NCBI RefSeq assembly: GCF_900108095.1
Contig: NZ_FNWL01000002.1
Coordinates: forward strand, 478,748-542,747
DNA length: 64,000 nucleotides
Source of the DNA: Natronorubrum sediminis
GTDB taxonomy: Archaea; Halobacteriota; Halobacteria; Halobacteriales; Natrialbaceae
Reading direction: 5' to 3'
Shown here: positions 8,565 to 60,096 of the stretch, piece after piece
Layout of the letters: every line of letters begins with the position of its first letter
Position numbering within the stretch: position 1 is the first letter of the stretch
Notes under the pieces: model-generated
Database searches by the model: none
What the model was told of the DNA's origin: nothing
What the model saw: the letters and a program-made list of their open reading frames with translations, nothing else
Position numbers and translations under genes: made by a program

Positions 8565-9047
8565 TTACTCGACGCTGAACGGACTCTCGCGCTCGGTCCA
8601 GTCCCAGCCGGGAATCCGCTCTTGGAACCCGGCAGCGAGGGCCGCCTCGAGGTCGTCGACTCCCGCATTTTCGCTTTCGGGTCCGTGTACCTGCAGATCC
8701 GCGTAGTGAAACGTGGCCTCGCCGAGGGTCCGCAACGGTTGCGTGCCGGCGATGGTCGCCGCGAGTTCGCGGCCGAGGAGTTCGTCGACGACGAAGCCGG
8801 GATAATCCCCCTCGACGTCGAGTTCTCGCAGGATCGCGACCATCGCGGCGACGTTGACCGCGAGGTCGCCGTCCGCGAAGACGGCGTCGACTTCCTCGAG
8901 ATACTGTTCTTCGGTGACGTGATCGACGTTCGTCTCGAAAATCCCTCCGAGATCGTCTCGGACGTCGTTGATGATGGGGACGACGGTTCCCGCTCGCGTT
9001 GCGACCCAATCGCGTTCCGTGACGACACGCGCCGGTGTGAGGTCCAT
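8565..9047 (-). CDS. Conserved haloarchaeal hypothetical protein
   Basis: 160 residues, acidic, soluble, with haloarchaeal codon use. Sequence includes RVVTERDWVATRAGTVVPIINDVRDDLG and GRELAATIAGTQPLRTLGEATFHYADLQ. No catalytic motif, signal peptide or membrane helix is visible and I do not recognise a family. Its ATG lies about 45 bases from the TATA-like element at 9089-9098, which reads acceptably in this direction too, so the promoter may be shared with the divergent fttA transcript. Convergent with the lipoprotein gene, 12 bases apart. Confidence 0.72.
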   Translation of the reverse strand: MDLTPARVVTERDWVATRAGTVVPIINDVRDDLGGIFETNVDHVTEEQYLEEVDAVFADGDLAVNVAAMVAILRELDVEGDYPGFVVDELLGRELAATIAGTQPLRTLGEATFHYADLQVHGPESENAGVDDLEAALAAGFQERIPGWDWTERESPFSVE

Positions 9048-9088
9048 AGCCCCCCGTTCGTGTCGGAGATCCCTGGTTTTTGCGAAGG

Positions 9089-9116
9089 CTTATATACGAC
9101 GCAAATAATAGCGTCG
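9089..9116 (+). promoter_or_regulatory. Strong TATA box followed by an operator-like palindrome
   Basis: GCGAAGG precedes CTTATATACG (9089-9098), a good BRE/TATA combination. Immediately after it is a perfect inverted repeat CGACGC (9097-9102), an 8-base AT-only spacer (9103-9110) and GCGTCG (9111-9116). The palindrome lies between the TATA box and the predicted plus-strand start near 9119, where a bound repressor would block polymerase. The assignment as operator is inference. Confidence 0.55.
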
Positions 9117-9119
9117 AAT

Positions 9120-9379
9120 AAGCGGGTTCTCCCTGGCATCTTCCCGCACGAACCAGGACACCGACCTGGGAGCGTGTTCGTCACAGCACGGGACAACGCG
9201 ATGATTCGGGATCGTACACCGTCTACGACAGACGGTGTTTCACGACGGCGCTCGACGATACTGCGTCTGACACGTCGTGGCGGTCGTGTTATTAATGCGT
9301 TCGTCGGTCCCCGATCACTCGACTCCCATTCGACACGCATTCCAGTCGGCGAGTTCACGCAAGCCACAATTGGCGACAT
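9120..9379 (+). promoter_or_regulatory. Long, structured 5' leader (or separate small RNA) ahead of fttA
   Basis: If transcription starts about 27 bases after the TATA box at 9089-9098, the fttA mRNA would carry a leader of about 260 bases, exceptional where most transcripts are leaderless. The segment can fold: a perfect 9-bp stem with a 5-base loop at 9216-9238 (ACACCGTCT / AGACGGTGT), and a smaller stem CCAGG 9153-9157 / CCTGG 9065+100 (9165-9169) flanked by ACGAAC 9148-9153 / GTTCGT 9176-9181. A second TATA-like TTATTAAT at about 9290 could instead drive a shorter fttA transcript. No known riboswitch or RNA family was recognised. Confidence 0.4.
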
Positions 9380-11314
9380 ATGAGTACTGTAGAGCAGCAA
9401 CTCGACGATTTGCAAGCAGAGATCACGAGCGAGTTACCGGCCGACATCTCGGTCTCCTCGGTGAAATACGAAGGCCCCGAACTGGTGGTCTACACGCGTG
9501 ACCCGAAGAAGTTCGCCCAGAAGGGCGACCTCATTCGAAAACTCGCGAGTAAGCTTCGAAAGCGGATCACCGTTCGCCCCGACCCGAGCGTGCTCTCGCG
9601 GCCCGAAGAGGCCCGCGAAGAGATCATGGACGTCATTCCGGAAGAAGCCGGCGTCACCGATCTCGATTTTCACGCAGATACCGGTGAGGTCGTCATCGAA
9701 GCCGAAAAGCCGGGCATGGTGATCGGCCGCCACGGCTCGACGCTCCGCGATATCACCAAGAACGTCGGCTGGACGCCCGAAGTCGTTCGCACCCCACCGA
9801 TCGAATCCTCCACGGTGTCGAACGTCCGGAGCTTCCTCAAGCAAGAACGCGACGAGCGACGGGACATCCTCGAGACGGTCGGCCGACAGATCCACCGCGA
9901 GGAGATGTCCGACGACGAGTACGTCCGTATCACGACGCTCGGGTGCTGTCGCGAGGTCGGACGCGCCTCGTTCATCCTCTCGACACCCGAAACGCGGATT
10001 CTCGTCGACTGTGGTGACAAACCCGGTGCGGAGGGTGAGGTTCCCTACCTCCACGCACCGGAGGCCTTCGGCGCTGGTCCACAGACAATCGACGCCGTCG
10101 TCCTCACGCACGCCCACCTCGACCACTCCGCGCTCATCCCCCTCCTGTTCAAATACGGCTACGACGGCCCGATATACTGTACCGAGCCAACGCGAGACCT
10201 GATGGGGCTGCTCACGCTCGACTATCTCGACGTCGCCGCCAAGGAAGGACGCACGCCCCCATACGAAAGCGAACAGGTTCGTGAAGCGATCAAACACTGT
10301 ATTCCACTCGAGTACGGCGACGTCACGGACATCGCGCCCGACGTCAAACTCACCTTCCACAACGCGGGGCACATCCTCGGCTCGGCTGTCAGCCACTTCC
10401 ACATCGGAGACGGCCTCTACAACGTCGCGTTTTCCGGGGACATTCACTACGAGGACACCCGCCTGTTCAACGGGGCGACCAACGACTTCCCGCGCGTCGA
10501 GACGCTCGTCTTAGAGTCGACGTACGGTGGTCGGAACGATTACCAGACCGACCAACAAGACTCCGAGGAAACGCTCAAAGAAGTCATCACGGAGACCTAT
10601 GAGCGTGGCGGCAAGGTCGTGATCCCCGCATTCGCAGTCGGTCGCTCTCAGGAGATCATGCTCGTCTTAGAACAGGCGATGCGCAGCGGCGACATCCCCC
10701 GGATGCCAGTCCACCTCGACGGGATGATCTGGGAGGCGACGGCCATCCATACGACCTATCCCGAGTACCTGCGCGACGACCTCCGAGATCGGATCTTCCA
10801 CGACGACGAGAATCCGTTCCTCGCCGAGGAGTTCAACCATATCGACGCCGGCGAGGAGGAGCGTCAGGAGGTCGCTGACGGCGAACCCTGCATCGTCCTC
10901 TCGACGTCGGGGATGGTCACCGGCGGTCCCATCATGTCCTGGCTCGGCCACATCGGTCCGGATCCGGATTCGACGCTGATCTTCGTCGGCTACCAGGCAC
11001 AGGGAACTCTCGGTCGGCGCATCCAGAACGGCTGGGACGAGATTCCGACCAGCGAAGTCGGCGCGATGGGTGGCGGCAACGGCCGTGGCACCCTCTCGCT
11101 GAACATGAACGTCGAAACCGTCGACGGCTTCTCCGGCCACGCCGACCGTGCCGGCCTCGAGAACTTCGTCAAGACGATGAACCCGCGCCCGGAGAAAGTC
11201 CTCTGTGTTCACGGCGACGAACGCTCGACGCAAGACCTCTCGAGTGCGCTCTATCACGACTACAATATGCGGACGTTCGCACCGAAGAACCTCGAGACGT
11301 TCCGGTTCCTGTAA
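9380..11314 (+). CDS. fttA: Beta-CASP ribonuclease FttA (aCPSF1), transcription termination factor
   Basis: 644 residues. Two N-terminal KH domains (about 1-145, including GMVIGRHGSTLRDI) precede a metallo-beta-lactamase core with the zinc motif HAHLDHS at about 244-250, then a beta-CASP insert (STYGGRNDY, GKVVIPAFAVGRSQEI) and C-terminal motifs STSGMVTGGP, GFSGHADRAG and VCVHGDE-like LCVHGDERS. The family is the archaeal homologue of the CPSF73 endonuclease and mediates factor-dependent 3'-end cleavage and transcription termination at U-rich sites. Length and domain order are complete. ATG at 9380 puts MSTVEQQLDDLQ at the N-terminus as in relatives. Confidence 0.96.
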   Translation: MSTVEQQLDDLQAEITSELPADISVSSVKYEGPELVVYTRDPKKFAQKGDLIRKLASKLRKRITVRPDPSVLSRPEEAREEIMDVIPEEAGVTDLDFHADTGEVVIEAEKPGMVIGRHGSTLRDITKNVGWTPEVVRTPPIESSTVSNVRSFLKQERDERRDILETVGRQIHREEMSDDEYVRITTLGCCREVGRASFILSTPETRILVDCGDKPGAEGEVPYLHAPEAFGAGPQTIDAVVLTHAHLDHSALIPLLFKYGYDGPIYCTEPTRDLMGLLTLDYLDVAAKEGRTPPYESEQVREAIKHCIPLEYGDVTDIAPDVKLTFHNAGHILGSAVSHFHIGDGLYNVAFSGDIHYEDTRLFNGATNDFPRVETLVLESTYGGRNDYQTDQQDSEETLKEVITETYERGGKVVIPAFAVGRSQEIMLVLEQAMRSGDIPRMPVHLDGMIWEATAIHTTYPEYLRDDLRDRIFHDDENPFLAEEFNHIDAGEEERQEVADGEPCIVLSTSGMVTGGPIMSWLGHIGPDPDSTLIFVGYQAQGTLGRRIQNGWDEIPTSEVGAMGGGNGRGTLSLNMNVETVDGFSGHADRAGLENFVKTMNPRPEKVLCVHGDERSTQDLSSALYHDYNMRTFAPKNLETFRFL

Positions 11315-57726: not shown

Positions 57727-57809
57727 GTTGTGGTAGCCAAGCGGCCCAAGGCGCATGGTTGCTAACCATGTGGCGTCAAGCCTCCGGGGTTCAAATCCCC
57801 GCCACAACG
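57727..57809 (+). tRNA. tRNA-Ser (GCT)
   Basis: Acceptor GTTGTGG pairs with CCACAAC; anticodon stem CATGG/CCATG closes a loop TTGCTAA with anticodon GCT (57754 region), a long variable arm with GGC/GCC pairing marks a type II serine tRNA, and the T arm is CGGGG-TTCAAAT-CCCCG. Discriminator base G, as expected for serine. No CCA encoded. It stands just ahead of the uS13 gene. Confidence 0.97.
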
Positions 57810-57846
57810 TCGGATATGCTGGCGACACGACGTCAGTAATCACTAC

Positions 57847-57865
57847 ACCGGCGACTTTCGCCGGT
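57847..57865 (+). promoter_or_regulatory. Perfect hairpin between tRNA-Ser and rpsM
   Basis: ACCGGCGA (57847-57854), loop CTT, TCGCCGGT (57858-57865): eight perfect pairs. It follows the tRNA by 37 bases and precedes the uS13 ATG by 41 bases. It may be a tRNA 3'-processing or termination structure, or a leader element of the ribosomal operon. No U-run follows, arguing against a simple terminator. Confidence 0.5.
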
Positions 57866-57906
57866 CGGTTTGCAACGCGCGCATACCAGACAGACATACA
57901 CGACAC

Positions 57907-58431
57907 ATGAGCGAGGAAGAACCTCAAGAACAACAGGACGACGAAGATCTCCAGTACTTCGTCCGCATCGGGCAGACTGACCTCGATGGGACGAAGTCCG
58001 TCGAGCGCTCGCTCTCGGAGATGAACGGGATCGGTCGACGAACCGCCCGACTCATCGCCGACGAAGCGAGTGTCGACCGAACAGCGACGTTCGGTCGACT
58101 CGACGACGACGTCATCGACGAGGTCGTCGAGATCGTAGAGAACTACGCTGCTGAAGTACCAGACTGGCTCAACAACCGCCAGTCGGACTTTTACACCGGC
58201 GAGACGACTCACGAGATCGGAAACGATCTCCAGTTGACCCGGCAGCACGATATCAACCGGATGAAGATGATCGACTCCTACAAGGGCTCGCGCCACAAGC
58301 GCGGCCAGAAGGTCCGTGGCCAGCGTACCAAATCCACCGGTCGTACGGAAGGTACCATCGGAGTCAACGTCGAAGAAATCCGCGAAGAACAGGCAGAGGA
58401 AGCTGCCGCCGAAGAGGAGGATGACGAATAA
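57907..58431 (+). CDS. rpsM: Ribosomal protein uS13
   Basis: 174 residues: [37 protein letters not shown] (helix-turn-helix), DIMNR-like [36 protein letters not shown] toward the C-terminus, plus acidic N- and C-terminal extensions (residues 1-15 and an EEEDDE tail) typical of haloarchaea. Binds 16S rRNA in the head and contacts tRNA. First gene of the operon; its stop overlaps the uS4 start by one base. Confidence 0.97.
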
Positions 58432-58953: not shown

Positions 58954-59343
58954 ATGAGCCAAGACGACGACAAGTGGGGAATCGCCCACGTGCACGCATC
59001 GTTCAACAACACCGTCATGACCGTGACCGATCTCACGGGTGCAGAGACGATCGCTAAGTCCTCCGGCGGGACGGCGGTCAAACAGAACCGAGACGAAGCG
59101 TCGCCGTACGCGGCGATGCAGATGGCCGAGTCCATCGCTGAGGAGGTCAAGGCTGCCGGTATCACCGGCCTGCACGTCAACGTGCGCGGTCCCGGTGGAA
59201 ATCTGCAGAAATCTCCCGGTCCCGGTGCACAGGCGACGATCCGCGCACTCGCCCGCTCGGGCATCGAGATCGGACGCATCGAAGATGTCACGCCGATCCC
59301 ACACGACGGATCGCGCGCACCAAAAGGAAAGGGCGGCTACTAG
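58954..59343 (+). CDS. rpsK: Ribosomal protein uS11
   Basis: 129 residues, full length. [36 protein letters not shown], then [61 protein letters not shown] and C-terminal KGKGGY are the conserved uS11 segments. It lines the platform at the E site. Separated from uS4 by one base. Confidence 0.98.
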
Positions 59344-59346
59344 ACC

Positions 59347-60096
59347 ATGACTGAATCGTACGACGTCGAGTTCGTCGAACGCGAGGATCGTGACGCACGC
59401 TTCCTCGTCCGCGGTGTAACACCCGCATTCGCTAACGGGATCCGTCGCGCGATGCTCGCCGACGTCCCGACGATGGCGATCGACACCGTTCGGTTCGTCG
59501 AGAACTCGTCGGTCATGTTCGACGAGCAACTCGCGCTCCGACTCGGACTCGTTCCGCTGACGACCCCACCCGAGGGAGAGTTCGGCGAGGACGAGGCCGT
59601 CACGCTCTCGATCGACGTCGAAGGGCCGGAAACCGCGTATTCGGGCGACCTCGTGTCGAGCGACGACCTCGTCCAGCCTGCGGACGAGAACGTCCCGATC
59701 ATCGACCTCAAGGACGGCCAACGTCTCGAGGCCGAGGCCGACGCCGTACTCGAGCGTGGCAAAGATCACGCGAAACACCAGGGTGGCGTCGCCGTCGGCT
59801 ACCGACACCTCCAGCGTGTCGAAGTCGGCGACGATATCCCCGAGTTTGAAGAGCAAGAACCACAGATCGTTCGCGGCGTCATCGAAGACGATGGCGAGCT
59901 TATTCCGACGAGCGAATTTGATCACGACCTCTCCCAGCGCTATCCAGGAAAGGAAGTGACGGTCGAAGACGTGCCAAACGCCTTCGTCTTCCGCGTCGAG
60001 ACTGACGGCTCGTTCTCCGTCGAGGAGATCGTTACTCGAGCCGCTGACTCGATCGAGGCGCGTGCGACCGAACTCGAAGACGCAGTACAGCTGTAA
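59347..60096 (+). CDS. rpoD: RNA polymerase subunit D (Rpo3)
   Basis: 249 residues. Alpha-like dimerisation pattern: [56 protein letters not shown] and the C-terminal [19 protein letters not shown]. Insert domain ([21 protein letters not shown]). The protein contains no cysteine at all, so it lacks the iron-sulfur cluster of many archaeal D subunits. It pairs with subunit L to start polymerase assembly. Confidence 0.97.

Follow-up and report, generated by a model that had tools for sequence, protein, structure and literature searches.

In Escherichia coli, the RNA-cutting enzyme RNase E is controlled through the long leader of its own gene, rne, and this autoregulation by the 5′ UTR works on mRNA stability via conserved hairpins. 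A short ORF, rhoL, is found in the leader ahead of E. coli rho. The rhoL-rho leader, where Rho terminates its own transcript early (PMC12121999), resembles the archaeal locus described here in that a long leader with a short ORF precedes the gene for a general termination factor acting on untranslated RNA. However, the archaeal factor, FttA (aCPSF1), is an unrelated beta-CASP nuclease and not a helicase ring, the upstream ORF (uORF) of fttA ends inside the fttA start codon, and termination in the fttA leader is putative. The fttA leader differs from the rne 5′ UTR in having a conserved primary sequence and a uORF. A Rho-like role of FttA in policing the coupling of transcription and translation has been put forward as a hypothesis (PMC11616081), and in the papers cited here we found no description of how the amount of a general termination factor is controlled in archaea.

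With regard to translation, the closest described cases are Haloferax volcanii gene pairs translated by termination-reinitiation, which have the same ATGA stop/start overlap and likewise belong to haloarchaeal translation (PMC6728339, PMC10666635). Strict translational coupling is reported for 13 of the 14 overlapping pairs tested in H. volcanii (PMC6728339). In this organism, reinitiation fails when the gap reaches about 22 nt and is nearly absent at distances above about 20 nt (PMC10666635). In contrast to those pairs, the upstream ORF at fttA is not a conserved protein, and conservation is limited to its end and frame. A review notes the possibility of ribosome delivery by a short uORF and regards FttA as the likely cause of polarity in archaea (PMC12548453). 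In H. volcanii, Babski et al. (2016) found 16 uORFs among 97 long leaders of 150 to 250 nt; unlike the fttA uORF, these encode 15 to 31 aa with low isoelectric points, and the main text of that article does not name the fttA ortholog HVO_0874 as a gene (PMC4983044). The fttA leader also runs against a view published there, namely, that structured-leader control is untypical of haloarchaea (PMC4983044). A search of freely accessible articles by title and abstract start found no description of this fttA leader.

The fttA locus and its relatives

The window analyzed here is a 64,000-nt stretch of DNA from Natronorubrum sediminis, a member of the Natrialbaceae (contig NZ_FNWL01000002.1), and its features around fttA are listed in Table 1. 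A preliminary description of the window had named the gene for the termination factor and had pointed to about 260 bases between a strong TATA box and its ATG. Both statements are confirmed, the former by matches to TIGR03675 and PF17214, the FttA KH domain; the closest FttA among the matches listed, that of Natronorubrum texcoconense, is 97% identical. From the TATA box at 9090-9096, transcription is predicted to start near 9120, which would give a leader of about 260 nt up to the ATG at 9380. For HVO_0874, a figure legend in PMC4946936 marks +1 and the ATG separately, unlike two genes that are called leaderless in the same article, and the best CRISPRi site is reported to lie directly downstream of the start (PMC4946936). 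The intergenic region is shared with a divergent 160-aa gene (8565-9047, minus strand) whose product has no Pfam family; the start of what appears to be the same gene is seen upstream of fttA in many Halobacteria.

Table 1. Coordinates of features at the fttA locus in the window
Feature	Position	Strand	Basis or remark
fttA promoter, TTGCGAAGGC followed by TATA box TTATATA (9090-9096)	9080..9096	+	sequence; promoter comparison over 151 loci
Conserved 5′ element, AAGCGGGUUCUCCC...CCCGC, at predicted transcript start	9120..9147	+	promoter-anchored search
Possible hairpin within 5′ element	9122-9126/9143-9147	+	helix 100% paired, almost invariant
Second conserved leader block, ACCAGG..ACCGACCUGGGAG..GUUCGUCAC	9151..9184	+	family only; alignment of 47 loci
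uORF, 60 codons + TGA (9381-9383)	9201..9383	+	stop overlaps fttA ATG 9380 as ATGA
Perfect 9-bp hairpin, arms 9216-9224/9230-9238	9216..9238	+	inside uORF; not conserved
Family-conserved tail, GGCGAGTTCACGCAAGCCACAATTGGCGA, just before fttA start	9348..9376	+	different frames in different species
fttA (aCPSF1), 644 aa	9380..11314	+	TIGR03675 (E = 8.6e-291), PF17214, and PF10996 profile matches

The comparison started from 161 loci, composed of the window, the 80 best of 577 loci encoding a relative, and 80 regions outside the window's family, which were drawn from 145 genomes picked to cover other genera. Five near-duplicates and five second copies or misaligned starts (L184-L188; lower-ranked or odd copies) were dropped. 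For counts of uORFs, five more loci were dropped, in which the element could not be placed by a promoter-and-motif regular expression, and 146 remained. Four of these five (L070, L117, L153, and L182) also have an ORF that reaches the fttA start, and the fifth (L160) has several short ORFs, one of them ending at +3.

A conserved element at a fixed distance from the promoter

Comparison of the loci shows a 5′ element, a fixed geometry between this element and the promoter, and the overlap of a uORF with the fttA start. Across the class Halobacteria, the predicted 5′ end of the transcript bears the near-invariant AAGCGGGUUYUCC. Upstream regions of fttA from throughout the class share one sequence at the predicted start, AAGCGGGUU(U/C)UC or, in a set of other genera, CGGUUUUCCGG; for the H. 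volcanii gene HVO_0874, the element is given as AAGCGGGUUUUCC. When 151 loci were searched with the promoter as the only anchor, to avoid circularity, 143 of them had CGG(G)TTYYC in the first 60 nt downstream of the promoter (0.9 expected by chance). The distance from the TATA end is 27 to 30 nt in 137 of these, and the 8 loci without a match carry near variants. The four bases following GG are TTTT in 83 of the 99 loci outside the window's family, while TTCT is present in 16 others and in all 47 family loci, including the window. With positions 9100-9379 as a DNA query, matches were obtained in 33 of 37 genomes from the window's family but in none of 24 from other families; the best-matching piece extended from about 9100 to 9212, and a second piece lay just before the fttA ATG.

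The exact element occurs at a single site in its own genome. A regulon sharing the element was considered and rejected, as one exact and seven one-mismatch sites (8 sites) compare with 13 sites for a reversed-pattern control; with only 12 bases, the pattern by itself is not informative in a set of 120 genomes from the phylum.

The helix GCGGG/CCCGC (helix A) within the element is always paired in the family and hardly varies, and because it is almost invariant it has no covariation support; against shuffles it is not significant, with 1 of 146 loci in the top 5%. In clades outside the family, pairing is moderately specific: in a subset, the arm after GGUUU pairs better with its own downstream arm than with foreign arms (e.g., UCCGGACUC/GAGUCCGGA, UCCGAACUC/GAGUUCGG, and UCCGGGUU/GACCCGGA), the own arm ranking within 10% for 22 of 74 distinct arms and within 5% for 10 of 74.

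Folding of the leader

The preliminary description saw in this leader two stems, the 9-bp hairpin and a nested stem at 9148-9181 (ACGAAC/GTTCGT around CAGG/CCTG), and both are indeed found in the sequence. The 260-nt leader folds better than most dinucleotide shuffles (z = -2.40; 2 of 200 shuffles equally good), and a perfect hairpin of at least 9 bp arises in 9 of 500 shuffles. As conserved structure, however, the two stems were rejected, since the hairpin shrinks in relatives and covariation is lacking. Where the window has its hairpin at 9216-9238, the longest perfect stem measures 5 bp in a sister genome and 4 to 5 bp in 6 other close loci (11 relatives were tried, of which 4 were unmatched by the search string). 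For the 9148-9181 stem, scored together with the GCGGG helix on 43 distinct family sequences, the whole-structure covariation score is 0.098 versus 0.097 in shuffles and was reached or exceeded in 194 of 500 shuffles. What stands of the long, structured leader first described is thus its length, its conservation, and its specificity to fttA, and not the named stems as its conserved feature. Other pairings were tried and discarded: that of the leader GUUCGUC with GGCGAG of the tail, judged by eye, is inconsistent, and an alternative helix CUCCC/GGGAG has one compensatory cell only. The leader matched no family in Rfam 15.

A uORF overlapping the fttA start codon

The feature missing from that first view of the leader is a uORF whose stop overlaps the start codon of fttA. 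By a chain rule, in which the first ATG after the element is followed to its stop and then to any ATG that overlaps this stop or lies at most 6 nt away, the fttA start is reached in 120 of 146 loci, compared with 25.5 in mononucleotide shuffles, a null model to be read with the descent relationship of the loci in mind. The start is reached directly (last stop base at -2 to +30) in 100 loci, via a chain in 10, and by a stop just before it in 10; 26 loci depart from the rule, 22 of them by failing it and 4 by having no ATG at all. On the same null model, the first uORF would stop exactly at ATGA in 15.4 of 142 loci, and it does so in 75. An ORF of at least 15 codons ending in ATGA, the commonest arrangement, is present in 88 of the 146 loci. 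The rule is followed by 33 of 38 genera in the set chosen outside the window's family. The uORF ends at +16 in Haloferax and at +7 in Halorussus, not at ATGA. As in a termination-reinitiation pair, the stop of the upstream ORF overlaps or nearly touches the downstream start.

Sixteen other genes of the window are preceded by 150 nt or more of unassigned DNA; 4 of them also have an ATGA-overlapping ORF, and for two of these 4 ORFs the codon signature is like that of a real gene. A single genome therefore proves little, and it is the persistence throughout the class that counts as evidence. Two short ORFs without a codon signature, at 57755-57910 and 59285-59350, end in ATGA at the start of the next gene, which suggests that coupling to a uORF may extend beyond fttA. 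Extra upstream ATGs are present in some loci, and several of the resulting short ORFs run into the next start with an ATGA overlap. Chains of two or three short ORFs linked in this way by ATGA are seen in the leaders L034, L037-L039, L045, L050, L074, and L075 and also in L139, L157, L167, and L179. The start of the family uORF is itself an ATGA.

Conservation of register rather than of peptide

In the uORFs, GC content hardly differs between the three codon positions (0.65/0.64/0.66), compared with 0.64/0.39/0.79 in fttA. The uORF peptide is not conserved across loci, its length varies widely, and the uORF product matched no family in Pfam or NCBIfam. The family-conserved tail of about 29 nt has no second site in its genome when up to 2 mismatches are allowed. 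Its translation is GEFTQATIGD in some species and RRVHASHIWRL in others. Constraint on a protein is thus not seen in the uORF, with its flat codon-position GC and frame shifts in the tail. Nevertheless, the register with respect to fttA is kept in 33 of the 42 family loci that have the tail (5 of 7 loci with a shifted tail and 28 of 35 without a shift), and a compensating upstream shift exists in 5 of the 7 shifted-tail loci, the window among them (Fisher P = 0.0005 on the 2-by-2 part, which covers 38 of the 42 loci). Given the flat codon signature and the compensated frame shifts, the ATGA overlap rather than the uORF peptide appears to be under selection. The tail is conserved at the nucleotide level, within the family only, and may be a contact site for RNA or the ribosome.

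Probable termination-reinitiation and alternative explanations

The best explanation, and on the whole a probable one, is that in the class Halobacteria the 260 nt form the 5′ leader of fttA mRNA and that translation of fttA occurs by termination-reinitiation after a nonfunctional leader ORF, with the 5′ element as control site. Transcription would begin at about 9120, within the conserved element; ribosomes would start at the uORF AUG at 9201, make a peptide without a function of its own, halt at the UGA overlapping the fttA AUG, and then reinitiate at fttA. By analogy with the published H. volcanii gene pairs, we infer that reinitiation at ATGA would make fttA translation dependent on translation of the uORF. 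The 5′ element would be a control site specific to fttA, and the likeliest controller would be FttA, which may bind or cut the leader or terminate there when the uORF is untranslated. Self-regulation by FttA through cleavage or termination in the leader had been suggested in the preliminary description. A narrower proposal, compatible with termination-reinitiation but tentative, is autogenous control, in which FttA binds the 5′ element or the untranslated leader, cuts or terminates, and so lowers its own synthesis, while a translated uORF shields the RNA when ribosomes load. The specificity of the element to fttA, with its single exact site in the genome, is consistent with this proposal, and so are reports that the aCPSF1 KH domains bind U4-tract RNA (PMC8716108), UUUU being present in the element of 83 of 99 loci outside the family, that FttA is proposed as a Rho-like quality control factor of coupling (PMC11616081), and that Rho terminates early in its own transcript (PMC12121999). 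The UUCU found instead in all 47 loci of the window's own family speaks against a strict U4 rule, and no report of autogenous control was found by title or abstract start.

It is unlikely, though conceivable, that the conserved 5′ sequence acts as DNA, as an initially transcribed region or a regulator site, and not as RNA. Such a role would suit its near invariance, the fixed spacing from the TATA end, the lack of covariation in the family, and the failure of helix A to exceed shuffles locus by locus, but the subset of arms after GGUUU that prefer their own downstream arm argues for pairing in RNA. Less probable still is a repressive uORF, on which ribosomes would miss or block the fttA start; the overlap of more than 4 nt in Haloferax and Halorussus could be understood in this way, whereas the commonest arrangement, ATGA, is the one for which efficient reinitiation has been published. 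That the uORF is a genuine gene for a small protein, in one operon with fttA, is very improbable: an N terminus MIR[DE] recurs within the family, but the codon signature and the differing frames of the tail led us to reject it, and variable length and the lack of a Pfam or NCBIfam match point the same way. The preliminary description had also entertained an independent small RNA; such an RNA, which would be made from the same promoter, can hardly be upheld. A strong promoter of its own and a family-conserved 5′ block are what such an RNA might have, yet the element is found next to fttA and not elsewhere, at a fixed distance from the promoter; the leader runs on through the uORF to the fttA start, has no Rfam match, and shows no terminator-like site in 9000-9400 in a scan with a simple bacterial-type consensus, which covers archaeal terminators in part. 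A scan for sigma-70-type promoters is not meaningful for archaea.

Probable origin of the leader, possible parallel with Rho, and second FttA copies

In all 20 sampled genomes of the phylum outside the Halobacteria (L200-L219), the ORF preceding fttA has a C terminus like that of a proteasome beta subunit, as judged by ORF ends and, in one case, by profile (TIGR03634). None of these 20 fttA genes has the leader, and a Shine-Dalgarno-like purine run is often present in front of them. The linkage of proteasome gene and fttA is broken in the Halobacteria. The haloarchaeal gene therefore seems to have gained a promoter, an element, and a uORF of its own.

As in a Rho-type leader, a uORF-bearing leader that is specific to the gene precedes the gene for a termination factor. 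A more speculative proposal, to which we give slightly less credence than to autogenous control as such, is that FttA gauges its own activity: the UUUU/UUCU element would load FttA on nascent fttA RNA, a uORF translated into the fttA start would protect the transcript, and the arrangement would have arisen when haloarchaeal fttA left the proteasome operon. If so, the FttA level would be set by the balance of termination against transcription-translation coupling, and the fttA leader would have its bacterial counterpart, reached by convergence, in the leader of Rho. As a natural leader that would require translation to arrive exactly at the fttA start, it lends itself to a direct test in H. volcanii, whose genetics are easy.

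Several haloarchaeal genomes have a second FttA at about 72% identity (L184-L188 and L222-L229). Three genomes of one genus encode two divergent FttA copies each, at 71 to 73% identity; one copy per genome carries the element and an ATGA uORF (L226, L228, and L229). The upstream region of the other copy was read in two of the three genomes and is without the leader (L222 and L223). In a fourth genome, the 82% FttA copy has the leader and the 72% copy lacks it. In the FttA pairs read, a single copy keeps the leader, and its partner is without the element.
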